From: an uncultured Bacteroidales bacterium
Lineage (GTDB): Bacteria; Bacteroidota; Bacteroidia; Bacteroidales; Paludibacteraceae
DNA length: 61,408 nt
Assembly (NCBI GenBank): GCA_902800525.1
Contig: CADCEV010000018.1
Span: 1-61,408 of the forward strand
Direction of reading: 5' to 3'
The position numbers and the translations under genes were made by a program. Positions within the stretch are counted from its first letter, which is position 1, and each line of letters begins with the position of its first letter. The notes under the pieces are model-generated. The model saw only the letters and a list, made by a program, of their open reading frames with translations. It was not told where the DNA came from and made no database searches. Below, piece by piece: positions 45,867 through 60,945 of the stretch.

Positions 45867-45898
45867 TTTGCATATATGCAAAAAAAGTTGTAACTTTG
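45867..45898 (+). promoter_or_regulatory. Promoter of tRNA-Ala with palindromic -33 region
   Basis: TTTG (45867-45870) within the perfect palindrome TTTGCATATATGCAAA (45867-45882), 20 bases, then TAACTTTG (45891-45898). The tRNA begins 27 bases after the -7 box. Confidence 0.75.
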
Positions 45899-45925: not shown

Positions 45926-45999
45926 GGGGTATTAGCTCATCTGGCTAGAGCGCAACACTGGCAGTGTTGAGGTGGGGAGTTCGAGTCTCCCATGCTCCA
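45926..45999 (+). tRNA. tRNA-Ala (anticodon GGC)
   Basis: Acceptor GGGGTAT/ATGCTCC (one G-U pair), D arm GCTCATCTGGCTAGAGC, anticodon stem CAACA/TGTTG with loop CTGGCAG, T loop TTCGAGT. CCA is not encoded. It has its own promoter and lies directly upstream of a defence island, consistent with a tRNA 3'-end integration site. Confidence 0.93.
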
Positions 46000-46000
46000 C

Positions 46001-46080
46001 ATAGGAGACTGCGGTTCTTAGCCCCACGAGGGGGCACGATTATTGCGGCAAGCGCAATTTTCGAGTCCGCTATACTCCAC
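46001..46080 (+). other. Decayed tRNA-like 3' copy next to tRNA-Ala
   Basis: The 21 bases at 46060-46080 match the tRNA-Ala 3' end (45980-46000) at 17 positions and lie exactly 80 bases downstream. The T-stem does not form and no anticodon arm is present. It may be a relic tRNA or an attachment-site scar. It is also read as the first codons of the DUF262 frame. Confidence 0.35.
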
Positions 46081-47808
46081 GATGCAAGCAAGGCGGATTT
46101 CCTGATCCCGGACTATCAGCGTCCCTATGCGTGGGAAGCAAACAAAGAGTGTCTGACTTTGTGGGAAGATTTGTTTGAGTTCGCTATTCCGAATGGCAAT
46201 GCGGAGTTGTTCAACAAAGACACCGAGGAATACTATTTGGGTCCGATTGTGACGTTTAAGAACGACGAGAACAAATTAGAAGTGATTGATGGTCAGCAAC
46301 GTTTGACTACCATTATGCTTCTACTGCGTGCATTCTACTCTCGTTTTGGCAAGATGAAAGATGAGTTGGCTCGTCAGTTGGAAAAGAACATCGGTCGCTG
46401 CATTTGGAAGACAGATGAATATGACCGCCCGGACTTCAATCGTCTGCGTATTGACTCACAAGTAGCAACGGATAATGACAAAGAAGAATTCCTGTATATC
46501 CTTCGTGAGGGTGTTGTGGGCGAGAAGATGAAAAGCCGTTACGCGGAAAACTTCCGTTATTTCCAGCAGAAGATAGAAGAGTTCGTACAAGACTACCCTG
46601 CTTATTTCTATGCGCTGCCAAGCCGTATTCTCAACAACTGCATTTTGCTGCCTATCGAAGCCGACAAACAAGACACCGCCCTGCGTATCTTCTCCACTCT
46701 CAACAACCGTGGCAAGGCGCTTTCTGATGCCGACATCTTCAAGTCCGAGTTCTATAAGTACTACTCGAAGCAAGGACAGAAGGATCAGTTCATCGAGAGA
46801 TGGCGCAAATTGGAAGAGATATGTGATAAGATTTTCAACCCGCAGAGTGGTACTCCGATGGATGAATTGTTTACCCGCTATATGTACTATGAACGTGCCT
46901 TGCAAGGTAATAAACTGACGACCACAAAGGCTTTGCGTTCATTCTATAGTGAGAACAACTACAAGTTATTGAAGAATGATGCGACACTTGGCAACATGGA
47001 GCTTTTGGCTGACTTCTGGAAATCCGTTCAAGAGCAAGATCCAGACCGCTTTACGGATAGAGTGCTTCGCCGTTTGTTTGTGCTGAACTATGCGCCCAAC
47101 AGTATGTGGACGTTCTTTGTGTCGGTCTATTTCTTGCAGAACAAGGATGCCAATAATATGTTGGACGATGAGAAGTTCTATAATTTCCTTTGCCGCATTA
47201 CTGCATTCATCTGGGCGTATGCTATTACGAACCCAGGTGTGAATGCTTTACGTACACCGGTATATGCAGAGATGGTGAACGTAGTGAATGGAATTGAAGT
47301 TGAGTTTGCCGATTTCCAATTCCCGGGAGAGCAAACCTTCAATCAGATTAACAACTACAATTTCTTCAACGGTCGTCCTATCACTAAGTCCATGTTGGTA
47401 TGGTGGGCAATGGAGAACCCCAAACAAGTATTGCCGGACTTAGACACCACCTTTGAAATAGAGCACATTTTCCCTCGTCGCAGACAAGAGGCTGAGAAGT
47501 CGTTGAGTTCGAATGGTAAACTGGAGTCACTGGGTAATAAGACTATTTTAGAGAAACGTATCAATATCCGTGCAGCGGATTACCGATTGAGCGACAAGAA
47601 GCAGTACTATAATGGTTACACGAATAGCCGTAACGAGATAAAACAGGCTACATGCAATAGAGAGTTGCTAGACTTGGTAGCCACTAAGACGGATTACACA
47701 GAAGCCGATATTGATACGCGTTATAAGGAGATGATAGATGCCTTTATGAAAAATCTGAAGGCGAATAACCTTATCAAGTTTGATGTTCGGTCTATTATGG
47801 ACAAATAA
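46036..47808 (+). CDS. DUF262-DUF1524 protein (GmrSD-like type IV restriction)
   Basis: A nucleotide-dependent restriction factor thought to attack modified DNA. DUF262 has the signature DGQQRLTT (bases 46288-46311) and FLIPDYQRPYAWE before it. The C-terminal DUF1524 has the HNH-like EIEHIFPRRRQ near 47458. The 5' end is unusual: no ATG or GTG precedes the conserved core. The only standard start is a TTG at 45964 inside tRNA-Ala. The coordinate given marks where plausible protein sequence (IIAASAIFESAIL) begins. It may use a rare start or be 5'-truncated. Confidence 0.75.
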   Translation, partial: TIIAASAIFESAILHDASKADFLIPDYQRPYAWEANKECLTLWEDLFEFAIPNGNAELFNKDTEEYYLGPIVTFKNDENKLEVIDGQQRLTTIMLLLRAFYSRFGKMKDELARQLEKNIGRCIWKTDEYDRPDFNRLRIDSQVATDNDKEEFLYILREGVVGEKMKSRYAENFRYFQQKIEEFVQDYPAYFYALPSRILNNCILLPIEADKQDTALRIFSTLNNRGKALSDADIFKSEFYKYYSKQGQKDQFIERWRKLEEICDKIFNPQSGTPMDELFTRYMYYERALQGNKLTTTKALRSFYSENNYKLLKNDATLGNMELLADFWKSVQEQDPDRFTDRVLRRLFVLNYAPNSMWTFFVSVYFLQNKDANNMLDDEKFYNFLCRITAFIWAYAITNPGVNALRTPVYAEMVNVVNGIEVEFADFQFPGEQTFNQINNYNFFNGRPITKSMLVWWAMENPKQVLPDLDTTFEIEHIFPRRRQEAEKSLSSNGKLESLGNKTILEKRINIRAADYRLSDKKQYYNGYTNSRNEIKQATCNRELLDLVATKTDYTEADIDTRYKEMIDAFMKNLKANNLIKFDVRSIMDK

Positions 47809-47826
47809 GAATATAACAACCCAACA

Positions 47827-50397
47827 ATGAATAAACAACAATTAGCAGCACGCATTTGGGCGTCGGCCAATAAAATGCGGTCGAAGATTGAGGCCAGCGA
47901 GTACAAGGATTACATCCTCGGCTTCATCTTCTACAAATATCTATCCGACAAAGAGGAAGCGTTTATGCTCCGCGACGGCGGGATGACGCAAGACGAACTG
48001 GTCCAACTCCAGGAGCAAGACGACGAGATCGTACGTTTCTGCCAGACGAACATCGGCTATTTCATTGCGTACGACAACCTATTCTCCACGTGGCTCAAGA
48101 TGGGCAACGATTTCAGCGTCCAGAACGTCACCATCGCCCTCTCCGCGTTTGAGCGACTCATCAACGAGGACTACAAGAAGCTCTTCGAGAAGATCTTCTC
48201 TGCCCTCAGTTCGGGTATTGACAAACTCGGTTCGACAGCCGCTCAGCAATCGAAAGCCATCCTCGATCTGCTCTCGCTCATTAAAGACATCCCCACCGAT
48301 GATCGTCAGGGTTACGACGTGCTCGGTTTCATCTATGAGTACCTTATCGGTCAGTTTGCTGCTAATGCCGGTAAGAAAGCAGGTGAGTTCTACACCCCGC
48401 ACGAAGTGTCCGTTCTGATGTCCGAGATCGTAGCCGGTTATCTGCACGACCGCAAGACTATCTCTATTTACGACCCGACCAGCGGATCCGGCTCGTTGCT
48501 GCTCAATATTGGTCGCGCCATCAGCAAGCATACTAACAACAAAGATAGCGTCCATTATTTCGCCCAAGAACTCAAATCGGCGACGTTCAACCTCACCCGA
48601 ATGAACCTCGTTATGCGAGGCATCAAACCGAGTAATATCGAGGTGCGCAACGCCGATACGCTGGAGCAAGACTGGCCGAAAGACGAACGCACCAATGCTC
48701 CTACGCTCTATCTCGATGCCGTGGTCAGCAATCCGCCGTACTCTCAGCCGTGGAGTCCTGCCGGTAAGGAACTTGACCCGCGTTACCGTTACGGCGTAGC
48801 GCCCAAAGGCAAAGCCGACTACGCTTTCCTGCTCCATGACCTCTATCACCTCAAGCCGGATGGCATCATGACCATCGTCCTGCCGCACGGTGTCCTCTTC
48901 AGAGGTGACCCTGCCAAAGAGGAAGCAGAAGGTGTGATCCGTAAGAACCTCATTGAGAATAACCATATCGACGCAATCATCGGTCTGCCCGCAGACATCT
49001 TCTTCGGCACAGGTATCGCCACAATCATTATGGTGCTCCGCCAAAAACGTGATCGCGACGATGTCCTCTTTATCGATGCTAGCAAAGGCTTCATCAAATC
49101 GGGTAAGAAGAACAAACTGCGTGCCTCCGATATTCGCCGTATTGTCGATACGTACGAAACGCGCCAAAACACCGACAAGTACGCACGCCGCGTCAGCCGC
49201 GAAGAGATACGTGCAAACGGCTATAATCTCAATATCCCGCGTTATGTCGATTCGTCCGATGCCGCAGAGACATGGGACCTCTATGCGACTATGTACGGTG
49301 CTATCCCGAATCGTGAGATAGACGCGTTGCCCTATTGGTCTTTCCTGCCTACGCTTCGTCAGTCGCTCTTCCAACCGATCAGCAGCACACATAGCACGCC
49401 GCGTAAGGACGACGCAATCCGCTATCTCATCAACGCCGACCGCAGTTACTGCAACCTGCGTGATGACTATACCCGCACCATGGACGGTATCGACGCGTTC
49501 TTGCATCAGCAACTCCTCTCGTCTATCAACACCGTTCCGGTTAACCGCGAGGAAGATATCATCTCCGATGAACTGTTCGCCCGTCTCGGCAAACATCCTA
49601 TCTTCAACCCCTACGATGTCTATCAACTGCTTGACGACTCGTGGCAGGTCATCGCAACCGACCTTGAAATCCTCCAGACCGAAGGGTGGGACAAGGTGCG
49701 TGAGGTAGAACCGAACATGGTGCTCAAGAAGAAGAAAGACAAAGATTCCGGTGTAGAGACTGAGATCGAAGTGCAAGAAGGCTGGAGAGGACGTATTATG
49801 CCGTTTGAACTGGTGCAAGAACTCTTCCTCCGCGATATGCTCGACCATCGTGCTAACCTACAAGCAGAAGCCGAAGGCTGTGCTAATGAGATCGACGATA
49901 AGATACGTGAACTCGCTGACGAAAACCGCGAGAAATATATCGATGCTGAGTCCGAGAAACTCGACACCAAGCAACTCGCTGCCGATGTCAAAGCCATGCA
50001 GAAAGACCCGGATCTCAAAGACCCGGAACTGATGGAACTGCAACGTCTTCTCAATAAGCAGAAAGAGATCAACAAAGAACTCAAAGCCCTCGAAGCGGCA
50101 CTCATTGACAAGACCTGCTACACCATTGAGCATCTTACCGACGACGATACCTATACGCTCTTGCGTGAGAAATGGATTATGCCGCTCTGCGCGAAAATCC
50201 ACTCGCTGCCTACCGAACTGCTCAATACCATCGAGACCGATGTCAACCGACTCATCAAGCGCTATGCTGATACGCTTCTGAACGTAGGCAATGAGATCGA
50301 CAAAGCCGAATCCGAACTGGCGAACCTCTTAGACGAACTAACCGGTGACGAGGCAGATATGCAAGCTATACGAGAACTCCAAAAACTCCTCCAATAA
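47827..50397 (+). CDS. hsdM: Type I restriction-modification methyltransferase (M) subunit
   Basis: 856 residues. An N-terminal helical domain (RSKIEASEYKDYILGFIFYK) leads to the adenine methylase with the SAM motif YDPTSGSGSLL (about 216) and catalytic SNPPYSQPW (about 300). After the methylase comes a region of about 350 residues ending in a long coiled coil, longer than the usual 500-residue HsdM. With HsdS it methylates adenine at the recognition site. It is 18 bases downstream of the DUF262 gene, and its stop overlaps the hsdS start by one base. Confidence 0.93.
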   Translation: MNKQQLAARIWASANKMRSKIEASEYKDYILGFIFYKYLSDKEEAFMLRDGGMTQDELVQLQEQDDEIVRFCQTNIGYFIAYDNLFSTWLKMGNDFSVQNVTIALSAFERLINEDYKKLFEKIFSALSSGIDKLGSTAAQQSKAILDLLSLIKDIPTDDRQGYDVLGFIYEYLIGQFAANAGKKAGEFYTPHEVSVLMSEIVAGYLHDRKTISIYDPTSGSGSLLLNIGRAISKHTNNKDSVHYFAQELKSATFNLTRMNLVMRGIKPSNIEVRNADTLEQDWPKDERTNAPTLYLDAVVSNPPYSQPWSPAGKELDPRYRYGVAPKGKADYAFLLHDLYHLKPDGIMTIVLPHGVLFRGDPAKEEAEGVIRKNLIENNHIDAIIGLPADIFFGTGIATIIMVLRQKRDRDDVLFIDASKGFIKSGKKNKLRASDIRRIVDTYETRQNTDKYARRVSREEIRANGYNLNIPRYVDSSDAAETWDLYATMYGAIPNREIDALPYWSFLPTLRQSLFQPISSTHSTPRKDDAIRYLINADRSYCNLRDDYTRTMDGIDAFLHQQLLSSINTVPVNREEDIISDELFARLGKHPIFNPYDVYQLLDDSWQVIATDLEILQTEGWDKVREVEPNMVLKKKKDKDSGVETEIEVQEGWRGRIMPFELVQELFLRDMLDHRANLQAEAEGCANEIDDKIRELADENREKYIDAESEKLDTKQLAADVKAMQKDPDLKDPELMELQRLLNKQKEINKELKALEAALIDKTCYTIEHLTDDDTYTLLREKWIMPLCAKIHSLPTELLNTIETDVNRLIKRYADTLLNVGNEIDKAESELANLLDELTGDEADMQAIRELQKLLQ

Positions 50398-51644
50398 TGG
50401 CTAAACAACCGAAAATACGATTTAAAGGCTTTACCGAGGAGTGGAAAGAGAAAGGATTCTCTGAACTGGTGACAATTCGTCGCGGTTTAACGTATTCTCC
50501 TGAGAGTATCGTTTCTGAAGACGGAATAGTTGTTTTGAGATCATCTAATATCTCCGACGGACAATTCCGCACATACAAAGACGATGTCCGCGTACGAAAT
50601 GAGGTCGTGCATATCCCGTTAGTAGAAGATGGAGACATCTTAATTACCGCCGCGAATGGTTCTAAAGACCTTGTCGGTAAACATGCCGTTATTCACAATC
50701 TTCAAGAGCCCTCTGTACCCGGCGGTTTTATGTTATTGGCCTCAGGCAAGGAGACTACCTTTGTAAATGCTCTTATGGGATCATCTTGGTATTCTCATTT
50801 TATTGGGTTAAGTACTTGTGGTGGAGGTGGAAGTATTGGGAATCTTAATAAATCTGATTTAGAAAGTCAGATAGTGTATATCCCAAATGATAAAGCAGAG
50901 CGTGATATTATAGCAAAATATTTTGATTCTTTAGATTCTACTATTACAAGCCGTGAAACTGAGTTGGAGAAGCTGAAGAATATCAAGCGTTCGCTACTCG
51001 AAAAACTCTTCCCGCAAGACGGTCAAGCAATTCCCGCTATCCGATTCAAGGGTTTTGAGGGTAAATGGGAGAATAGGCGATTAAAAGACATAGCCACTCG
51101 TGTTACAAGAAAAAATATTGGTTTAGAATCAACACTACCACTTTGCATTTCAGCGCAATTAGGGTTGGTATCTCAAACCGAGTATTACAACAACGTTGTA
51201 GTAGGTGCTAATTTGGCAAATTATTTCTTAATAAAGAAAGGAGAATTTGCTTATAACAAGAGTGCTGCGGGTGAATATCCAATGGGAGCTGTTAAATGCT
51301 TGAAATCTCTAGATAAAGGTATTTTGTCCACTCTCTATATTGTCTTTGCGTTAAAAGATGACATAGATGCTGACTATGTGCAAGCGCATTATGAGACTAA
51401 ACCATGGCAAGACGATGTTAAGAAACGCGTCGCTGTGGGTGCAAGGAATCATGGCTTGTTGAATATATCTCCTGAAGATTTCTTTGATAGTTTGGTCGTT
51501 ATTCCCCATAATAATGATGAACAAAAGAAGGTAGGTCAGATATTAGCTAAATTATCCCAAACTATCTCTCTCCGCGAGCGACAATTAACCCTTCTGAAAC
51601 ACTCCAAACAAGCCCTCTTGGAGCAAATGTTTGTAAATGAGTAA
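50397..51644 (+). CDS. hsdS: Type I restriction specificity (S) subunit
   Basis: 415 residues with two target-recognition domains (about 8-190 and 215-400). Each is followed by the conserved helix (ITSRETELEKLKNIKRSLLEKLF and ISLRERQLTLLKHSKQALLEQMF) that spaces the half-sites. Base composition shifts: parts of both recognition domains are clearly more AT-rich than the conserved helices, a mosaic expected from domain exchange. The stop codon (TAA) is immediately followed by the ATG of the transposase-like gene. Confidence 0.93.
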   Translation: MAKQPKIRFKGFTEEWKEKGFSELVTIRRGLTYSPESIVSEDGIVVLRSSNISDGQFRTYKDDVRVRNEVVHIPLVEDGDILITAANGSKDLVGKHAVIHNLQEPSVPGGFMLLASGKETTFVNALMGSSWYSHFIGLSTCGGGGSIGNLNKSDLESQIVYIPNDKAERDIIAKYFDSLDSTITSRETELEKLKNIKRSLLEKLFPQDGQAIPAIRFKGFEGKWENRRLKDIATRVTRKNIGLESTLPLCISAQLGLVSQTEYYNNVVVGANLANYFLIKKGEFAYNKSAAGEYPMGAVKCLKSLDKGILSTLYIVFALKDDIDADYVQAHYETKPWQDDVKKRVAVGARNHGLLNISPEDFFDSLVVIPHNNDEQKKVGQILAKLSQTISLRERQLTLLKHSKQALLEQMFVNE

Positions 51645-52823
51645 ATGTCCTCCGAACATGACATATGGCAACCGCAGGAGCCGGGCAAAGCATGGAAGGG
51701 AGCCGGGCTATACCATATCACGCTGACGATACCGTCGCGTGAGCCTTTGTTGGGCTCGCTTGTTATCCCCGAAAACGATCCCGCCCAAGCAAGGGTGGAT
51801 TATAGCGATTTGGGGCGGGCGGTTCTGGATTATCAGATTGCCAATGCTTCCTATTATCCCGAGATACAGATTCTCCATTATTGCCTTATGCCCGATCACC
51901 TCCATGCCGTCTGGTATGTCCGCAAGGCTATGCCCCGCGGTATTGAATCCGCGGTGCGCGGTTTCTGGCAGGGTGTCAAGAAGGCAGGCCGGGCGTATTC
52001 CTATCTTTCTTCTATTAAACCCGATTCAGATTCGGGGGAAGGAAAGAAATTATACGCCATAGCCGAGCATCTGCGAGGGCAGATACCCGATGCGGCATAC
52101 GCTGCTCTCCCGCCTGTCTTTACCGAGATGCCCTTCATCCGCCCGATGGGGCAACGGCGGCAGCTGCCAACGACCATCCGCTATATAGATATGAATCCGC
52201 AGCGGTTGGCTACCAAGCGTTTGAAACCGGGCTTCTTCCGCGTGCAGGAGGGTATTGAGATAGCTGGAAGAAGGTATAGCGGCGTGGGGAATGTGGCACT
52301 GCTACAGGCGGCCAAATATGCGCCTGTGCATGTCCGCTGGACGATGATAGACGAAGCGATGCATGGCGATGACAAACGCTTACGCGATTATATGAACGGC
52401 TGTGTGTTGGCTGCCCGTCAAGGTACGGTAATGGTCTCACCGTTCATCTCCGATAAGGAGAAAGAGGTGATGGTGGTTCTTCTGGCGGAAGAACATCCCA
52501 TCATCTATATCGCGGATAACGGTTTCCGCGATTATTACAAGCCAAGCGACGGCTTGTTCGACTCCGTCGCCGCCGGGCGTGTGCTGATACTCTCGCCGTG
52601 GGAGTATGATCCCTCCAAACGTCTTGTGACGCACGCGGAGTGCGTGGCGATGAACCGGATGGCGGAGGAGATATGCACCCTTTCTTCACTTAACCCCGAA
52701 TCCGATTCGGGGGAACTAAAGAAAACACAAAACGGAACCATCAATTCGGGAGAAGGTGGCGATGCCTCTCATCTTTCTTCTTTTACGCCCGAATCCGATT
52801 CGGGCATAACACCGATAAAATAA
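51645..52823 (+). CDS. REP-associated tyrosine transposase (RAYT) with C-terminal nucleotide-binding-like domain
   Basis: 392 residues. The N-terminal half is a Y1 (IS200-type, HUH) transposase domain: YHITLTIP (about 23) and HYCLMPDHLHAVWYV (about 78-92, the HUH pair). The C-terminal half (RQGTVMVSPFISDKEKEVM, IIYIADNGFRDYYKPS, AAGRVLILSPWEYD) resembles a DprA/SMF-like Rossmann fold; that part is inference. Three REP-like palindromes lie inside the frame, read as P(D/E)SDSG. The gene sits exactly between hsdS and hsdR in one operon, so it may be domesticated or a recent insertion. Confidence 0.8.
   Translation: MSSEHDIWQPQEPGKAWKGAGLYHITLTIPSREPLLGSLVIPENDPAQARVDYSDLGRAVLDYQIANASYYPEIQILHYCLMPDHLHAVWYVRKAMPRGIESAVRGFWQGVKKAGRAYSYLSSIKPDSDSGEGKKLYAIAEHLRGQIPDAAYAALPPVFTEMPFIRPMGQRRQLPTTIRYIDMNPQRLATKRLKPGFFRVQEGIEIAGRRYSGVGNVALLQAAKYAPVHVRWTMIDEAMHGDDKRLRDYMNGCVLAARQGTVMVSPFISDKEKEVMVVLLAEEHPIIYIADNGFRDYYKPSDGLFDSVAAGRVLILSPWEYDPSKRLVTHAECVAMNRMAEEICTLSSLNPESDSGELKKTQNGTINSGEGGDASHLSSFTPESDSGITPIK
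52002..52045 (+). repeat. REP-like element inside RAYT, copy 1
   Basis: CCCGATTCAGATTCGGG (52020-52036) is the palindrome with one mismatched pair, preceded by ATCTTTCTTCTATTAAA. It is read in frame as LSSIKPDSDSGE. Confidence 0.8.
52676..52720 (+). repeat. REP-like element inside RAYT, copy 2
   Basis: CCCGAATCCGATTCGGG (52695-52711), perfect eight-base arms around one C, preceded by CTTTCTTCACTTAAC. Read in frame as LSSLNPESDSGE. Confidence 0.85.
52770..52805 (+). repeat. REP-like element at the 3' end of RAYT, copy 3
   Basis: The same 17-base palindrome at 52788-52804, with an additional flanking G-C pair, preceded by ATCTTTCTTCTTTTACG. Read in frame as LSSFTPESDSGI six codons before the stop. 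Confidence 0.85.
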
Positions 52824-52832
52824 AACACCCAT

Positions 52833-55800
52833 ATGTACGATAGCGAACTGACTTTTGAACGTGACCTGATAGACTTCCTAACCACTAAAGGATGGAGCAG
52901 CGGTGTCCTCAAGAACTGCACCGAGCAAGACCTGCTCGATAACTGGGCACACATCCTCTATCAGAACAATTCCGGTATCGACCAACTCAACGGTGTGCCG
53001 CTGACCGCTTCGGAGATGCAGCAGATAGTTCACCAAGTGAACACACAGCACACGCCTCTTGCGCTCAATGGCTTCATCAACGGTAAGACCGTCAATATCC
53101 GTCGCGACAACGAGGCAGACAAACTGCACTATGGGCAGACCGTCTCCCTCTCGATCTATGACCGCAGTCAGATAGCTTCCGGCAGTAGCGTTTATCAGAT
53201 TGCCGAGCAACCGAAGTTCCCTACCGCTCATCCTCTTGCCTCTGACAGACGAGGTGACTTGATGCTGCTTATCAACGGCATGCCTGTAATCCATATCGAA
53301 CTCAAACGTTCACACGTAGCCGTTTCGCAAGCCGTTAACCAAATACGCAAATACTACCACGAAGGAATCTTCTCGCAAGGTATTTTCTCGCTCGTACAAG
53401 TGTTTGTGGCTATGAACCCCGATGAGACGATCTATTTTGCGAACCCGGGCAGTTACGAAGCCTTTTCTCCGCAATACCAGTTCCATTGGGCAGACTTTAA
53501 CAACGAGCCTATCAACGACTGGAAATCGATAGCCACTCATCTGCTCTCTATTCCCATGGCGCACCAGATGATCGGCTTCTACACCGTGGCAGACAAACTC
53601 GCGGGTAACCTCAAGGTTATGCGCAGTTATCAGTACTATGCCGCGTCAGCGATTGCCGACCGTGTAGCCACCTGCCGTTGGGATGAACATGACTTGTTTG
53701 GCGGTTACATCTGGCATACTACCGGCTCAGGTAAGACGATGACTTCCTTCAAATCGGCTCAACTGATAGCCGATTCCGGCAAGGCAGACAAGGTCGTCTT
53801 CCTCATGGACCGAATCGAACTCGGTACGCAGACTGCACTCGAATATCGCGGATTCAAGAACGAGATAGAGGAAGTACAAGAGACCGACAACACCGATGAT
53901 CTGATTTCCAAACTGGATAGTACTGACACACGCGATACCCTCATCGTCACCTCTATTCAGAAGATGAGCCGTATTGTGCCCGAATCAGGCAATCGTCACC
54001 AACTCAACCGAATCAACCAAAAGCGACTCGTCATCATCATCGATGAGTGCCACCGAGACGTGTTCGGAGATATGCTGGCAACGATTCGCGCCACCTTCAC
54101 ACGCGCGATCTTCTTCGGCTTCACCGGCACACCTATCCAAGAGGAGAACCGCAAGTTGCTCCAGACGACAACAAACGTCTTTGGCAATGAGCTGCACCGT
54201 TACAGCATCGCCGATGGTATCCGCGACGAAAACGTGCTGAAGTTCGACCCTGTAATGAAGATTGTCTTCCCCGATCAGAAACTCAAACAGGAAGTGGCAC
54301 TCTTCAAGGCAAAAGCCAAGACCATGGAAGAAGCTCTTGCAGATGAGAAGAAGAAAGAGGTCTATTTCCATTATATGAACGACGTGCCCATGGCAGGTAA
54401 GACCACCGAAGATGAAGGTATCGAGGACTATATCCCGAAAGCACAATTCGAATCGGGTGAATACCAGCGTGCGGTCGTTAACGACATCAAGGCTTCTTTC
54501 CCGGCTTTGAGTCTCGCTAACAAATACCACGCGATCTTCGCTACCTCGTCCATCCAAGAGGCGTTCGAGTACTACGTCTATATGCGTGCGTTTGCGCCGG
54601 AACTCAAAGTGACCTGTCTCGTGGATCCTTCCATTGACAATGAAGGCAAAGGCGAGATCAAGGAAGACCTGCTTATCAAGATTGTCGGTGACTACAACGA
54701 CCAATACGGCACGAACTTCACGCTGCCCAAATATGCCCTCTTCAAGAAAGATGTGGCGCTCCGTTTGGCACACAAGGATATCTACAAAGGTATCGAGTCC
54801 AACCCTGCACAGTGTTTGGACGTGCTCATCGTCGTCAATCAGATGCTGACCGGCTTCGACTCCCATTGGGTCAACACCCTCTATCTCGACAAAGTGCTGT
54901 ACAACGAGAACCTTATCCAAGCTTTCTCGCGTACCAACCGTCTCAACGGACCCGACAAACCGCACGGCACGATTTGTTACTACCGCTATCCGCACACCAT
55001 GAAGCGAAACATAGAAAACGCGATCCGCCTCTATTCGGGACAACAACCGCTCGGTATCAAAGCCGACAAACTGGATGTGCATATCCGCGCGATTGAAGCC
55101 GCTTATGCACAGATACAATATCTCTTTCAGATAGCAGGAGTTGAGGACTTCTCCAAACTGCCGGAAGATAAAGACCTACGCGCGCAGTTCGCCAAGCATT
55201 TCCGTGAACTCAACCGCCACCTCAACGCGGCGCGTGTGCAGGGCTTCCAATGGAACAAACTGCAAGAACCAACCCTGCCAACCGACGATACCGAAGAAGC
55301 GGAAGAGGTGACGCTGGCGATGAGTGCTCTCACTATCGATGAGACCACCTATGGTGCACTCCTGCAACGTTACAAAGAGATCGAGCGCGGACCCAAAAGC
55401 ACACCCACCGATGAGGTCACCTTTGACATCGACCCCTATATTATCTCCATCAACACCGGTGCGATTGATACCGATTACATGAACGCACGTTTCCGCAAGT
55501 ACCTGCGCACACTCAACTCCTCCGAGCAAGAGCAAGCGCAGGCTCTCGAAGAGCTGCACCGCTCTTTTGCCACCCTCACCCAAGAGGAACAGGACGTGGC
55601 AGGGCGTTTCCTGCGTGACGTGCAACGTGGCACCGTGCAAGTCGATGAAGCCAAACCGCTCCGCGATTATATCACCGAATACATGGCGCGGGAGAAGAAC
55701 GACCGTATCCATCGTTTCGCACAGGCTTTCGGTCTCAACGAGAACCTGCTCCGCGAGATAATGAATAACTACATGCAGGGGGATATTATCCCGCAAGGAC

Positions 55801-55952
55801 CACTCGATCAACTCAAAGAGTCCGTCGATAAATCCCTTGCCAAGGCATGGTTCGAGCAGCACGAAGGTGTGGCGATTCCTGCTTTCCGTATTAACATCCG
55901 TATTGACGCCCTCCTCCGCCAATTCATCGAAGACGGCGGTTTTGAGATATAA
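52833..55952 (+). CDS. hsdR: Type I restriction endonuclease (R) subunit
   Basis: 1039 residues: an N-terminal PD-(D/E)xK nuclease (DLMLLINGMPVIHIELKRS, about 145-160), and two RecA-like motor domains with Walker A HTTGSGKTMTS (about 295), Walker B IIDECHRD (about 402), FTGTPIQEEN and a late FSRTNRLNGPDKPHG motif. A helical C-terminal part binds HsdM. It cuts DNA away from the site after ATP-driven translocation. It starts nine bases after the RAYT stop, so restriction depends on transcription through the transposase-like gene. Confidence 0.95.
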   Translation: MYDSELTFERDLIDFLTTKGWSSGVLKNCTEQDLLDNWAHILYQNNSGIDQLNGVPLTASEMQQIVHQVNTQHTPLALNGFINGKTVNIRRDNEADKLHYGQTVSLSIYDRSQIASGSSVYQIAEQPKFPTAHPLASDRRGDLMLLINGMPVIHIELKRSHVAVSQAVNQIRKYYHEGIFSQGIFSLVQVFVAMNPDETIYFANPGSYEAFSPQYQFHWADFNNEPINDWKSIATHLLSIPMAHQMIGFYTVADKLAGNLKVMRSYQYYAASAIADRVATCRWDEHDLFGGYIWHTTGSGKTMTSFKSAQLIADSGKADKVVFLMDRIELGTQTALEYRGFKNEIEEVQETDNTDDLISKLDSTDTRDTLIVTSIQKMSRIVPESGNRHQLNRINQKRLVIIIDECHRDVFGDMLATIRATFTRAIFFGFTGTPIQEENRKLLQTTTNVFGNELHRYSIADGIRDENVLKFDPVMKIVFPDQKLKQEVALFKAKAKTMEEALADEKKKEVYFHYMNDVPMAGKTTEDEGIEDYIPKAQFESGEYQRAVVNDIKASFPALSLANKYHAIFATSSIQEAFEYYVYMRAFAPELKVTCLVDPSIDNEGKGEIKEDLLIKIVGDYNDQYGTNFTLPKYALFKKDVALRLAHKDIYKGIESNPAQCLDVLIVVNQMLTGFDSHWVNTLYLDKVLYNENLIQAFSRTNRLNGPDKPHGTICYYRYPHTMKRNIENAIRLYSGQQPLGIKADKLDVHIRAIEAAYAQIQYLFQIAGVEDFSKLPEDKDLRAQFAKHFRELNRHLNAARVQGFQWNKLQEPTLPTDDTEEAEEVTLAMSALTIDETTYGALLQRYKEIERGPKSTPTDEVTFDIDPYIISINTGAIDTDYMNARFRKYLRTLNSSEQEQAQALEELHRSFATLTQEEQDVAGRFLRDVQRGTVQVDEAKPLRDYITEYMAREKNDRIHRFAQAFGLNENLLREIMNNYMQGDIIPQGPLDQLKESVDKSLAKAWFEQHEGVAIPAFRINIRIDALLRQFIEDGGFEI

Positions 55953-56208: not shown

Positions 56209-57117
56209 ATGTCCGTAGTACAATATAAGAAATACTTTTGGTTGGTGGATACGATCCGCAGTGCGGGGAAGATCACCAAAGAGCAGATTGATCGCAAGTG
56301 GTCCAGTTCACGGTACAATGACAGTCACGAGACATCTATCCCGGACACGTCGTTCTATCGTATCCGGCGCGACATTGAGGAGCTTTTCGACATCGAGATC
56401 TTATGCGACAGGACTTCCGGTCAGTATTACATCGACGATTCCGACCTCAACTCACGCACCAAGCAATGGTTGCTCTCGCAGTTTGCCATGAGCCAGTCGC
56501 TTGATGCCAGTCGTGAACTGCGGGATAACATCATCTACGAGTCCATTCCGGAAGGTACCCAATACCTCACGACCATCGTTACTGCCATCAGTGAAAGTCG
56601 GATACTCCTTTGTACGCACCAGCGCTTTGACACGGACACGCCGCATGTGTTCTACCTCTCGCCGTTGTGCCTGAAGGTATTCAAACAGCGGTGGTACGTG
56701 CTGGGTACATGCACCGAACTCGACGGCACGATTGACCCAAAGAGTCCGAAGATGTATTCTCTTGACCGCATCGTTAGTCTGGAACTGCTGGAGAAGACCT
56801 TCAAACGTCCGAAGAACTTCAACGCACGCGAGTATTTCGCTCCGTTCTATGGTGTGTTCTGCGGTAATGATCTGAAAGCGGAACTGGTGCGCGTGCGTGT
56901 GGAGTCTGAGAAAGATGCTATGTACCTGCGTTCACTTCCGTTGCATGCGTCGCAGAACGAACCCGAACCCTGTGTGTTCGAGTGGCACGTGGCACCAACC
57001 TTCGATTTCATTCAGCAGTTGAGGACATACGGTTCCAAACTCGAAGTGCTCGAACCTCAATCGTTGCGGGAAAAATTTGCGGAAGAAGCGAAAAAGCTCG
57101 CAGAGATGTATGTTTAA
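56209..57117 (+). CDS. WYL-domain transcriptional regulator
   Basis: 302 residues: N-terminal winged helix (FWLVDTIRSAGKITKEQIDRKW), then a WYL domain (LYLSPLCLKVFKQRWYVLG-type strand, MYSLDRIVSLELLEKTF) and a C-terminal extension. WYL proteins of this layout (BrxR/CapW-like) repress phage-defence operons and respond to nucleotide ligands. Position just after the type I system suggests it controls this island; no operator is proven. A terminator follows at 57143-57171. Confidence 0.82.
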   Translation: MSVVQYKKYFWLVDTIRSAGKITKEQIDRKWSSSRYNDSHETSIPDTSFYRIRRDIEELFDIEILCDRTSGQYYIDDSDLNSRTKQWLLSQFAMSQSLDASRELRDNIIYESIPEGTQYLTTIVTAISESRILLCTHQRFDTDTPHVFYLSPLCLKVFKQRWYVLGTCTELDGTIDPKSPKMYSLDRIVSLELLEKTFKRPKNFNAREYFAPFYGVFCGNDLKAELVRVRVESEKDAMYLRSLPLHASQNEPEPCVFEWHVAPTFDFIQQLRTYGSKLEVLEPQSLREKFAEEAKKLAEMYV

Positions 57118-58686: not shown

Positions 58687-58898
58687 CGGAGCTTACGCTC
58701 CTTGTCGGAGACGTAATCCTCCCGCTCGCGAAACTCACGGGCACAGGACAACGAAAGACGGTAACTCCGGCAACGGAGGTGCCGGACACAGGACAACGTA
58801 ACCGGCATCAAATGCCGGGCTAACAGACGATCCGGCGACAATAAACAAAGTCATTAACAACGCGGGATAGCATCCCGCACAATAAACATAGACAGATT
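58687..58898 (+). repeat. Hairpin-rich spacer 1
   Basis: Four short perfect hairpins: GGAGC-TTAC-GCTCC (58688-58701), ACTCCG-GCAA-CGGAGGT (58764-58780), CCGGCAT-CAA-ATGCCGG (58802-58818) and GCGGGAT-AGC-ATCCCGC (58862-58878). The last is followed by ACAATAAACA shortly before the next start. No coding frame is seen. Confidence 0.75.
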
Positions 58899-59345
58899 AT
58901 GAAGGCAATAGAAATGAATCAAGCCCTCATGGAGGCAATCAAGACAACAGAAGTATTAGGTGCCAGCGCATTGGAAGAGAGCCGCGCACTCAAGCAGTTG
59001 GTGGCGTCGGCAAACGCACGTATCGAGGAGCTAGACGGTAAGGCGGTGGAGGACGCGAAAGTGTGCGCCATCGAGCAGAACGGCGAGGACAAAGGCAAGT
59101 TCCTCTTTGATGGTCACCACTACGAGCTGCGCAAGGCAGAGACGTACGATTTTATCGGGAAGCCGCAGAAGTACACGATGGCAGAGGGTGTGGTTTTTAG
59201 GCAGAAGACAGCAGAACAGCAAGTACTGAAAGCTAAATCGGCGGCGATCACCAAGGTGCAGAAGGCGATAAAGGATGCTTTCCCGATGACGCACCCGAAT
59301 ATCGAGCCGGATAGCGTGGAATACACGGTGGTGTGTGTGGATTAA
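58899..59345 (+). CDS. Uncharacterised small protein
   Basis: 148 residues, not recognised. A helical N-terminal half (MNQALMEAIKTTEVLGASALEESRALKQLV) precedes a strand-rich centre (GKFLFDGHHYELRKAETYDF) and a lysine-rich helix. The ending EPDSVEYTVVCVD lies at the stop. No signal peptide. It starts 20 bases after the last hairpin of the preceding spacer. Confidence 0.6.
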   Translation: MKAIEMNQALMEAIKTTEVLGASALEESRALKQLVASANARIEELDGKAVEDAKVCAIEQNGEDKGKFLFDGHHYELRKAETYDFIGKPQKYTMAEGVVFRQKTAEQQVLKAKSAAITKVQKAIKDAFPMTHPNIEPDSVEYTVVCVD

Positions 59346-59348
59346 GAC

Positions 59349-59435
59349 GGACGATGGCATCGTCCGGATATATTGACAGATGCCGAATGCAGGGAGGGGA
59401 GGACGGCGCCGCCCGATCCGCCAATCTTGGCGGAT
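59349..59435 (+). repeat. Hairpin-rich spacer 2
   Basis: GGACGAT-GGC-ATCGTCC (59349-59365) and ATCCGCCAA-TC-TTGGCGGAT (59416-59435), plus a GC-rich imperfect hairpin between them. The second is almost identical to 60926-60945. Confidence 0.75.
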
Positions 59436-59591
59436 ACAAAAGCGGGCGGCGAACGGAGGGGATGAAGGCAAAAGAAAGGGAATAAAAGAAAAGAAGCAAA
59501 AGAAAATTAACAAAGAAAAAATGATGATGATGTTATACTATGCAGATAGATTCATCATCAAGAATGTTGAATGTTTAATGTTTAAAGTTTA

Positions 59592-59969
59592 ATGAACGAT
59601 GAAAAGAAATCTTTTGATTATATGTGGGAGCTGCTTAACCCACCGCGGGAGTTCCACAACATGCGCAGCAAGTGCGAGACAACCCTTTGGAACGCGCTCA
59701 GTATCGACATGCAGCATCGTGTCTATCGTCTCATCCGAGATAAGAAACGGCGCGGTGAGGCTATCCACCCGAATCCGTGGTACGCTATCGTCAACGCACG
59801 GGATGCAGAGCCGACAAACTATAACGGTGACGCTCGCATTGACGACCTCGCCAAGACAACGAAAATGGTCGTTGCGTGGTACAAAGAACGTGCTGGGATT
59901 TATACCCTCGAAGAAGCCCTTGCGCTTAAACTCAGCATCATCCGGGAGTTTAGACCATTACAAGATTAA
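59592..59969 (+). CDS. Uncharacterised small protein
   Basis: 125 residues, basic and helical (MRSKCETTLWNALSIDMQHRVYRLIRDKKRRG, then ARIDDLAKTTKMVVAWYKER). It resembles small DNA-associated or replication-accessory proteins in composition only; no family is recognised. The second half ends in a leucine-rich helix. Confidence 0.55.
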   Translation: MNDEKKSFDYMWELLNPPREFHNMRSKCETTLWNALSIDMQHRVYRLIRDKKRRGEAIHPNPWYAIVNARDAEPTNYNGDARIDDLAKTTKMVVAWYKERAGIYTLEEALALKLSIIREFRPLQD

Positions 59970-60283
59970 AGGGAGAAAGAATGAAACTAAACGCGAAGCT
60001 GACGCTCCGCGCAGCAGACGAAGAAAAGAGACAAAATGAGTTACTGTCGGGAGGCTCTTAGGAAGTTGTCGGAACATGATCCCGTGATGGTCGCGGCGGA
60101 AACGGCTCCGAAACAAGGGACAAATAGAACCGGCATACGATGCCGGGCTAATAGACGGAGACAAGATCGTGACGGTCGCGGCGGAATACCGCCGCAAACA
60201 GAACAAAGAAAACGCCGGATAACATCCGGCACAATAAAAGAATCTCGCGGGATAGCATCCCGCATAATAAACGATGTGAAACA
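59970..60283 (+). repeat. Hairpin-rich spacer 3
   Basis: 314 bases with CCGGCAT-ACG-ATGCCGG (60130-60146), GCGGCGG-AATA-CCGCCGC (60178-60195), GCCGGAT-AAC-ATCCGGC (60214-60230) and GCGGGAT-AGC-ATCCCGC (60247-60263). The last is a repeat of 58862-58878. Each of the last two is followed by an ACAATAAA or ATAATAAA string. No reading frame here looks coding. Confidence 0.75.
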
Positions 60284-60556
60284 ATGGAAAAGAACAACTA
60301 TCCTTTATATGATGTGCCGTGGTTGGTACGAGACCCAAATGCGTATCGGATGTCGGAGAAACGGCATCAGATTGAGGTGAGGAATCAAGCGGTGGTGGAT
60401 GATTACTTTGTGGCAAGGGCAAACGGGGATACGGCGCATGAGGCACGAGAAGTGGTTGCTACGAAGCATGGGATAAAGTCCCGGCAAGTGTATCACAGCC
60501 TCGTTTGGTACTTTCAAGAAGCAAAAAGAAGACACATTGTGGTTCCGGATTTGTAA
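60284..60556 (+). CDS. Uncharacterised small protein (HTH-like end)
   Basis: 90 residues. The C-terminal half (DTAHEAREVVATKHGIKSRQVYHSLVWYF) has the spacing of a helix-turn-helix, suggesting DNA binding. No family is recognised. The start is 20 bases after the triloop hairpin of spacer 3. Confidence 0.5.
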   Translation: MEKNNYPLYDVPWLVRDPNAYRMSEKRHQIEVRNQAVVDDYFVARANGDTAHEAREVVATKHGIKSRQVYHSLVWYFQEAKRRHIVVPDL

Positions 60557-60595
60557 AAAAATCATTTTTGGGGAACACATTGTTTAATCCAACAC

Positions 60596-60603
60596 TATCT
60601 TTG
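60596..60603 (+). promoter_or_regulatory. -7 box ahead of the M-K-V protein series
   Basis: TATCTTTG is a TAnnTTTG -7 form; a TTTG (60567-60570) lies 25 bases upstream, farther than the 20-base norm elsewhere in the window. The next start codon is at 60626. Confidence 0.45.
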
Positions 60604-60625
60604 CAGCGAAATTTGATTATGAGAG

Positions 60626-60895
60626 ATGGCGAAAGTAGAATTAGAGCACCCGATAGCTTATCTGACGGGGATGCTGATACGAAGTGATCCGTATTATTTC
60701 AGGCGGTATCCTAAGTCCGGCGGCGGATACATGCAGATAGCGCAGGCTCGCCCCGACAGGAGCAGGCATGTGGCGAGTGAGGCGGAGGCGCTGAACCGGC
60801 AGGAGTTCGCGGAGAAATACGGACGACAGAAACATCAAGAGTATCTCGACAAGATATACCATAACCAACTCGAAATAGAATTCGAGGAACATTAA
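60626..60895 (+). CDS. Small basic protein, M[A/S/G]KV series member 1
   Basis: 89 residues: MAKVELEHPIAYLTGMLIRS followed by a short strand region and a helical, charged C terminus. It aligns by eye with the next gene over the first 40 residues (M-K-V, then G-x-L-x-R-S). No function is known to me. It may be a structural or DNA-associated component of the element. Confidence 0.55.
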   Translation: MAKVELEHPIAYLTGMLIRSDPYYFRRYPKSGGGYMQIAQARPDRSRHVASEAEALNRQEFAEKYGRQKHQEYLDKIYHNQLEIEFEEH

Positions 60896-60900
60896 TCACC

Positions 60901-60945
60901 CGATCGCATCGCGTGGGAGATAGAGATCCGCCAAACTTGGCGGAT
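60901..60945 (+). repeat. Hairpin-rich spacer 4
   Basis: ATCCGCCAA-AC-TTGGCGGAT (60926-60945) repeats the element at 59416-59435 with only the loop changed. A weaker CGAT-CGC-ATCG hairpin lies at 60901-60911. Confidence 0.7.

Follow-up and report, generated by a model that had tools for sequence, protein, structure and literature searches.

A restriction operon with an internal RAYT-like gene

We analyzed a 61,408-nucleotide stretch of DNA from an uncultured Bacteroidales bacterium (GCA_902800525.1, contig CADCEV010000018.1), hereafter called the window. A block of five genes on its + strand (45964-55952) comprises a GmrSD-type gene, hsdM, hsdS, a gene resembling REP-associated transposases (RAYTs) and hsdR, with gaps of 18, -1, 0 and 9 nt (Table 1). 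Pfam matches identify hsdM, hsdS and hsdR, found here in one unit, as a type I restriction-modification operon. The RAYT gene follows hsdS at 0 nt and precedes hsdR by 9 nt, which confirms the placement proposed in an earlier sequence-only reading of this DNA. The same reading had called the arrangement one tight operon, and the block does appear to be a single transcription unit. The pattern TTTG-N17..23-TANNTTTG, which we take to be a Bacteroidetes-type promoter motif, has 12 sites in the window on both strands against 1.25 expected; the full motif has no + strand match from 45898 up to hsdR, and no consensus match was found for a promoter belonging to hsdR itself, the presence of which the reading had named among the grounds for rejecting its claim. 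Several of the 12 promoter-like sites begin with TTTGCATAT. GC content is 54% in the RAYT gene, about 52% in hsdM and hsdR and 40% in hsdS. A WYL/WCX-domain regulator gene lies 256 nt past hsdR on the same strand (56209-57117).

Table 1. Features of the restriction block and of the hairpin elements in its RAYT-like gene (window positions)
Feature	Position	Strand	Evidence and remarks
Promoter-like motif, Bacteroidetes-type (putative)	45867..45898	+	Nearest upstream of restriction block; pattern TTTG-N17..23-TANNTTTG
GmrSD-type (type IV) restriction gene	45964..47808	+	PF03235 E 4e-36, PF07510 E 3.1e-8
hsdM	47827..50397	+	PF02384 E 9.9e-99, PF12161
hsdS, two target-recognition regions	50397..51644	+	PF01420 E 5.7e-10
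RAYT-like gene, 392 aa, intact	51645..52823	+	HUH and DprA/ShosA-like domain
Hairpin element, internal copy	52000..52056	+	R1 40.8 bits, alignments A2, A3; CCCGATT-CAG-ATTCGGG
Hairpin element, second copy, C-terminal tail (CCCGAATCCGATTCGGG)	52675..52731	+	R1 42.1 bits
Hairpin element, third copy, 3' end of gene (CCCGAATCCGATTCGGG)	52768..52824	+	R1 37.2 bits
hsdR	52833..55952	+	PF18766, PF22679, PF12008, PF04313

The RAYT-like protein has an HUH domain at about residues 20-195, with MPDHLH at 82-87 and Tyr180 within YIDMNPQR, followed by a predicted DprA/ShosA-like Rossmann domain at about 199-348 and a disordered tail. The DprA-like C-terminal domain suggested from sequence is borne out by fold prediction, which joins a TnpA-REP-like HUH domain, having the HUH Y1 fold of the TnpAY1 (RAYT) superfamily, to a DprA/ShosA-like domain. 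The latter match is one of fold only, with 15-16% identity over the aligned part, and a sequence search returned no solved-structure relatives. An MPDHLH-type HUH motif occurs in all 107 RAYT genes that we collected, which were themselves selected by this motif. The single catalytic Tyr in Y---NP is found by pattern in 105 of the 107 (the other two are mis-registered in the linker), and Y180, N184 and P185 are invariant among 59 aligned proteins, so that the HUH and tyrosine residues, whose conservation the earlier reading had proposed to check, are indeed conserved.

The protein resembles the class 2 TnpAY1/TnpA-REP (RAYT) proteins, as described in the available text of Quentin et al. (2018, PMC6006769), in its HUH motif, its Tyr in Y---NP and its link to hairpin DNA, and differs from them in its DprA-like C-terminal domain. 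The terms DprA, Rossmann and restriction are absent from the retrieved portion of that paper, and within the open-licence literature we found no report of an HUH-DprA fusion or of a RAYT-restriction link. Subclass 2.4, which spans Cyanobacteria and Bacteroidetes, is characterized there by NH[IFV]H, YIxNNP, a median length of 194 aa and GT[AG]G REPs; our proteins instead mostly carry DHLH and YI.MNPQR in about 330-390 aa, with MPDHxH in a large majority and, in the window protein, YIDMNPQR in 392 aa. Unlike DprA/ShosA proteins, the clade is fused to an HUH domain, and no antitoxin or transformation context was seen. It shares with IS200/IS605 transposases the HUH fold and, in principle, hairpin ends; unlike them, it has no tnpB seen adjacent to it and consists of single-copy diverged paralogues, the closest in the same genome being 64-65% identical, rather than near-identical copies.

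Recurrence and exchange at the hsdS-hsdR junction

We examined the same junction in related genomes, nearly all of them metagenome assemblies, with one genome per species and matches ranked by similarity to the window gene. Of 358 genomes from the family, 13 contain an hsdR homologue (E up to 1e-200). In the eight closest operons (at least 76% hsdR identity, window included), six carry a RAYT at the junction and two do not (G098 and G123); four of five more distant hsdR homologues have no RAYT upstream and the fifth lies at a contig end. The six RAYTs form two clades in a tree. One lineage occupies the junction in the window, G064, G168 and G075 (83-90% identical by BLAST over the full length), and the second in G164 and G139, whose RAYTs are 72-73% identical to that of the window and whose hsdR genes are 99 and 97% identical. 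The arrangement, which the earlier reading would have discounted had it proved confined to one genome with a degenerate RAYT, thus recurs in two lineages. The gene is also intact and under purifying selection: dN/dS over the aligned core of the four window-type copies is 0.04-0.09, ruling out a degenerate remnant for these copies. Between the two lineages the value is 0.15, and between G164 and G139 it is 0.16 on few changes; stops or frameshifts are present in some relatives, such as L195.

In 100-nt bins, the window RAYT is 76-98% identical to those of G075 and G064 (12 bins from 51627, at least 80% in all but three), as compared with 57-82% in hsdR and mostly 60-85% in the flanking hsdM/hsdR DNA. 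In G098, hsdM and hsdR are 88-99% identical to the window genes, yet the RAYT is absent. Because the RAYT bins are closer than their flanks and highly similar flanks can lack the gene, these comparisons indicate that the RAYT is exchanged separately from its neighbors, the exchanged segment ending close to the hsdS stop on one side and to the hsdR start on the other. The hsdS genes of the relatives share only 31-35% identity. A junction that is occupied by either of two lineages or by none suggests a gene that comes and goes. The earlier reading had held that orthologous operons lacking the gene and bearing a clean insertion scar would count against it: such empty operons do exist, in G098 and G123, and no scar was recognizable, as comparison of the junctions revealed neither a target duplication nor a clean scar. 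An ordinary IS insertion is ruled out, as the gene abuts hsdS and hsdR with no end duplication or scar and its paralogues in the genome are diverged. Plasmid-like or phage-like carriage is unsupported in nearly all cases, with no match in either a plasmid or a phage collection.

RAYT-like genes beside other restriction systems

A second hsd family also carries RAYTs at this position: L067 reads hsdM-hsdM-hsdS-RAYT-hsdR and L193 hsdS-RAYT-hsdR, with hsdR genes 77% identical and RAYTs that are very different (about 60% and 26% identical to the window RAYT). In L194 the order is hsdM-RAYT-hsdS-hsdR, with 0 nt and a 4-nt overlap at the RAYT borders. The order hsdS-RAYT recurs in L085 and L136, and a RAYT stands immediately upstream of hsdR in L191 and L192. 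MmeI-type genes precede the RAYT in L072, L093, L071, L195, L113 and L122 and follow it in L074 and L153, while L060 has a GmrSD gene flanked by two RAYTs. On one contig, L144 and L075 lie on either side of a complete hsdM-hsdS-hsdR set.

RAYT-like genes are enriched beside restriction-modification genes. We scanned 101 of 147 listed neighbor proteins, setting aside window-type hsd genes, repeated loci and many short ORFs; the commonest Pfam families were MmeI (6), Methylase_S (4) and HSDR_N (3), and PADLOC agrees (type IIG 6, type I restriction 3, type I specificity 3). Across 101 genus genomes, at least 7 of 39 MmeI matches lie within 5 kb of a RAYT against 0.29 expected (binomial 1.5e-8), as do at least 8 of 69 HSDR_N (HsdR) matches against 0.51 expected (binomial 4.9e-8); the relatives behind both statistics are not independent, and three of the at least eight HSDR_N cases are window-type. 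We also built a tree of 110 RAYTs, over which the 26 rows with a restriction link are scattered, with 18 label changes, 13 of them forced by supported branches, a count made with L060, despite its GmrSD neighbor, placed among the non-linked rows. This is fewer than after shuffling (23.3), yet many, and the majority of RAYT relatives have no restriction gene nearby.

The earlier reading had entertained domestication; in a strict form, tied to the restriction system, this finds no support, as most relatives lie away from restriction genes and a single junction may be occupied by either of two lineages or by none. A looser partnership is conceivable, in which the DprA-like domain would modulate HsdR or HsdM on incoming, at least partly single-stranded DNA, or the HUH domain would nick that DNA, as a true third component of some restriction systems. 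Purifying selection on the RAYT is consistent with such a role, and so is its location in at least three hsd families, where it is flanked by S and R or by M and S at spacings of 0 to a few dozen nt. The DprA-like fold would also suit it: reported activities of DprA in H. pylori (PMC4489622) include inhibition of a restriction enzyme and stimulation of a methyltransferase. We nevertheless consider a functional partner unlikely, given that the RAYT is missing from the very close operons of G098 and G123 and from four of the five operons with a more distant hsdR (the fifth being the one at a contig end), that a listed RAYT lies within 5 kb of only 15 of 108 MmeI or HsdR matches, and that the associated enzymes, type I, MmeI and GmrSD, are unrelated.

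Alternatively, both gene types may simply accumulate in the same variable regions, with the position inside an operon a harmless chance event. Additional genes are a known feature of restriction operons, RAYTs also adjoin Fic genes, and most RAYTs are located elsewhere, all of which suits this explanation. It would leave unexplained why RAYTs repeatedly sit exactly between a stop and a start codon, in two lineages at one junction and again in other hsd families, and why restriction families head the neighbor list; we regard it as doubtful, if slightly less so than a partnership.

A hairpin locked in the reading frame and its linkage to the HUH half

The RAYT genes carry an in-frame hairpin between the HUH and Tyr codons, typically CCCGAAT-N3-ATTCGGG; GACT, GCAT, TGAAT, GCCT, GGCT and other stems are also correctly paired. 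Between the HUH and NP codons, with loops of 3-5, a stem of at least 6 bp is found in 101 of 107 genes and one of at least 7 bp in 95, in most genes about 40-45 codons past the HUH motif. In a fixed stretch 36-75 codons past HUH, stems of at least 7 bp occur in 94 of 107 genes and are missing from 13, as compared with 19 of 528 other same-gene stretches and 8 of 230 in the flanks; synonymous resampling lowers the count to 4.45 (sd 1.8) of 107. The window's internal hairpin has one stem mismatch, absent in G075 and G064.

A redundancy filter left 87 elements. Alignment A2 holds 75 (74 of the 87, plus the window's own element replacing a wrong pick) and A3 holds 65, some having been excluded by hand for 4-nt loops, a wrong choice of hairpin or poor fit. 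All rows but the window's were chosen beforehand for a stem of at least 6 bp, so that the paired share is set by construction and only double changes count: there are 34 double-change cells against 4.6 (sd 1.7) after shuffling. Outer arms of 6-8 bp form a second helix in 45 of 83 elements (38 have no outer helix of at least 6 bp), with a mean longest run of 5.19 against 4.07 shuffled and a maximum of 4.45 in 200 shuffles. A peptide as the conserved entity is ruled out by the loss on synonymous resampling and by the use of all three codon phases (65, 45 and 8 of 118 hairpins; a gene may contribute as many as three, including hairpins other than its main one). Taken together, the alignments indicate that the hairpin is conserved as a nucleic-acid structure. 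A known RNA element was rejected, as the Rfam matches in the window are two tRNAs only.

Embedding of an element in the reading frame is not new: the accessible text of Quentin et al. (2018, PMC6006769) describes in-frame REPs between HUH and Y in subclass 2.4, with little effect on the protein according to the authors. The clade described here shares this placement and differs in having a bipartite, covarying hairpin at a near-fixed place. Unlike the elements of canonical REP-associated RAYTs, this hairpin has no GT[AG]G foot; the A3 consensus 5' of the stem is TTCnTTTnn (65 elements).

In the window's own genome, for which 150 of 533 candidates were scored, a covariance model finds seven distinct full-length sites at E <0.01, all in RAYT genes and none outside them, followed by an eighth RAYT site at E 0.02 and weaker ones that are mostly inner-hairpin only. 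The statement that RAYTs normally stand alone among REPs does not describe this clade, whose element sits inside the gene. Of 27 sites in G064, G075 and G024, 16 fall within a RAYT or at its end, 5 are within 2.2 kb and the remaining 6, full-length and all in G064, lie elsewhere; a Prevotella communis genome has one site, in a RAYT, and Xylanibacter brevis two, one of them within a RAYT locus. The simple pattern CCGAAT-N3-ATTCGG has 12 sites in the window's own genome, six outside RAYT genes, three of these within other reading frames. L155, L159 and L160 (C3:26777, C25:6399 and C26:2180 of this genome) have CCGAAT-N3-ATTCGG inside long reading frames outside the RAYT family, presumably VirE/DUF3987-type genes.

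The hairpin might act in mRNA, bound by the nascent HUH domain and limiting expression of the RAYT and of the downstream hsdR, as its conservation as structure rather than peptide and its regular distance past HUH in most of the 107 genes would allow. The extra copies at the 3' end or past the stop, which match the internal hairpin, fit DNA ends equally well, and we rate such cis regulation as very improbable.

The RAYT genes are mosaics. In the 90 genes compared, outer-arm similarity tracks the HUH half with the C half controlled for (partial r 0.317, p 0.001) and shows no relation to the C half with the HUH half controlled for (partial r -0.008). Outer arms agree in 89% of letters when the HUH halves are more than 75% identical, and in 40% when the C halves are more than 80% and the HUH halves less than 60% identical; the inner stem favors neither half (partial r 0.11 for the HUH half and 0.15 for the C half). 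These correlations indicate that the outer arms travel with the HUH half. Since the hairpin adjoins that half, shared breakpoints alone would give the linkage. The internal hairpin as sole recombination breakpoint is not supported: pairs such as L003 and L004 diverge from about codon 31 to 135 and are near-identical on both sides. Some genes have a further hairpin at the 3' end, either within the tail or immediately beyond the stop; its 6-mer stem equals that of the internal hairpin in 31 of 55 genes (56%), whereas shuffling gives 33% and 0 of 2,000 shuffles reached the observed share.

Our best reading, held tentatively and at somewhat less than an even chance, is that the RAYT is a recombination-spread passenger of restriction operons that recognizes its own hairpin. 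The clade would consist of Y1/HUH single-strand nucleases fused to a predicted DprA-like domain. The gene would spread across genomes and sites as a discrete unit, mainly by recombination, and settle recurrently in restriction-modification operons, where it would be carried along as a passenger, expressed and translationally coupled. With the recognition hairpin inside the reading frame, beside the HUH codons that would read it, hairpin and reader would move together when a cassette is exchanged. The protein may bind and cut its own hairpin as single-stranded DNA, which could aid copying of the gene into related loci or regulate the gene, and restriction operons may be favored for their mobility and persistence. 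The spread could also result from ordinary homologous recombination in the flanking hsd DNA, with no RAYT activity. A stronger version, in which an HUH-DprA nuclease and its in-frame hairpin act as lock and key, with specificity and target swapped as one cassette and the module recruited repeatedly as a type I, MmeI-type or GmrSD accessory that aids acquisition or exchange of restriction systems as single-stranded DNA, strikes us as quite unlikely, more so than a simple partnership.

The clade described here, which bears on why RAYTs persist in bacterial genomes, has its putative recognition element locked in the gene. Nucleic-acid structure in this clade shows strong signs of being under selection, and its genes recurrently reside in restriction operons, a combination that hints at an unrecognized link between mobile DNA and bacterial defense in gut bacteria related to Prevotella. 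Both the paired evolution of RAYT and hairpin and any effect of an HUH-DprA protein on the action of restriction systems on single-stranded DNA, or on their travel as such, become testable.

Other repeats and partial genes were seen around RAYT loci. A different palindrome, GGGCAAT-N3-ATTGCCC, lies within 200 bp upstream of the RAYT in L021, L027, L034, L075, L085 and L088, and L047 (G058:C41) has a partial second tandem RAYT starting from about residue 123, near the position of the internal hairpin. Outside the restriction block, positions 58802-60926 of the window hold clustered short palindromes with stems CCGGCAT, GCGGGAT and GCCGGAT, among which ATCCGCCA occurs twice; this stem is also found within the divergent RAYT of L060.
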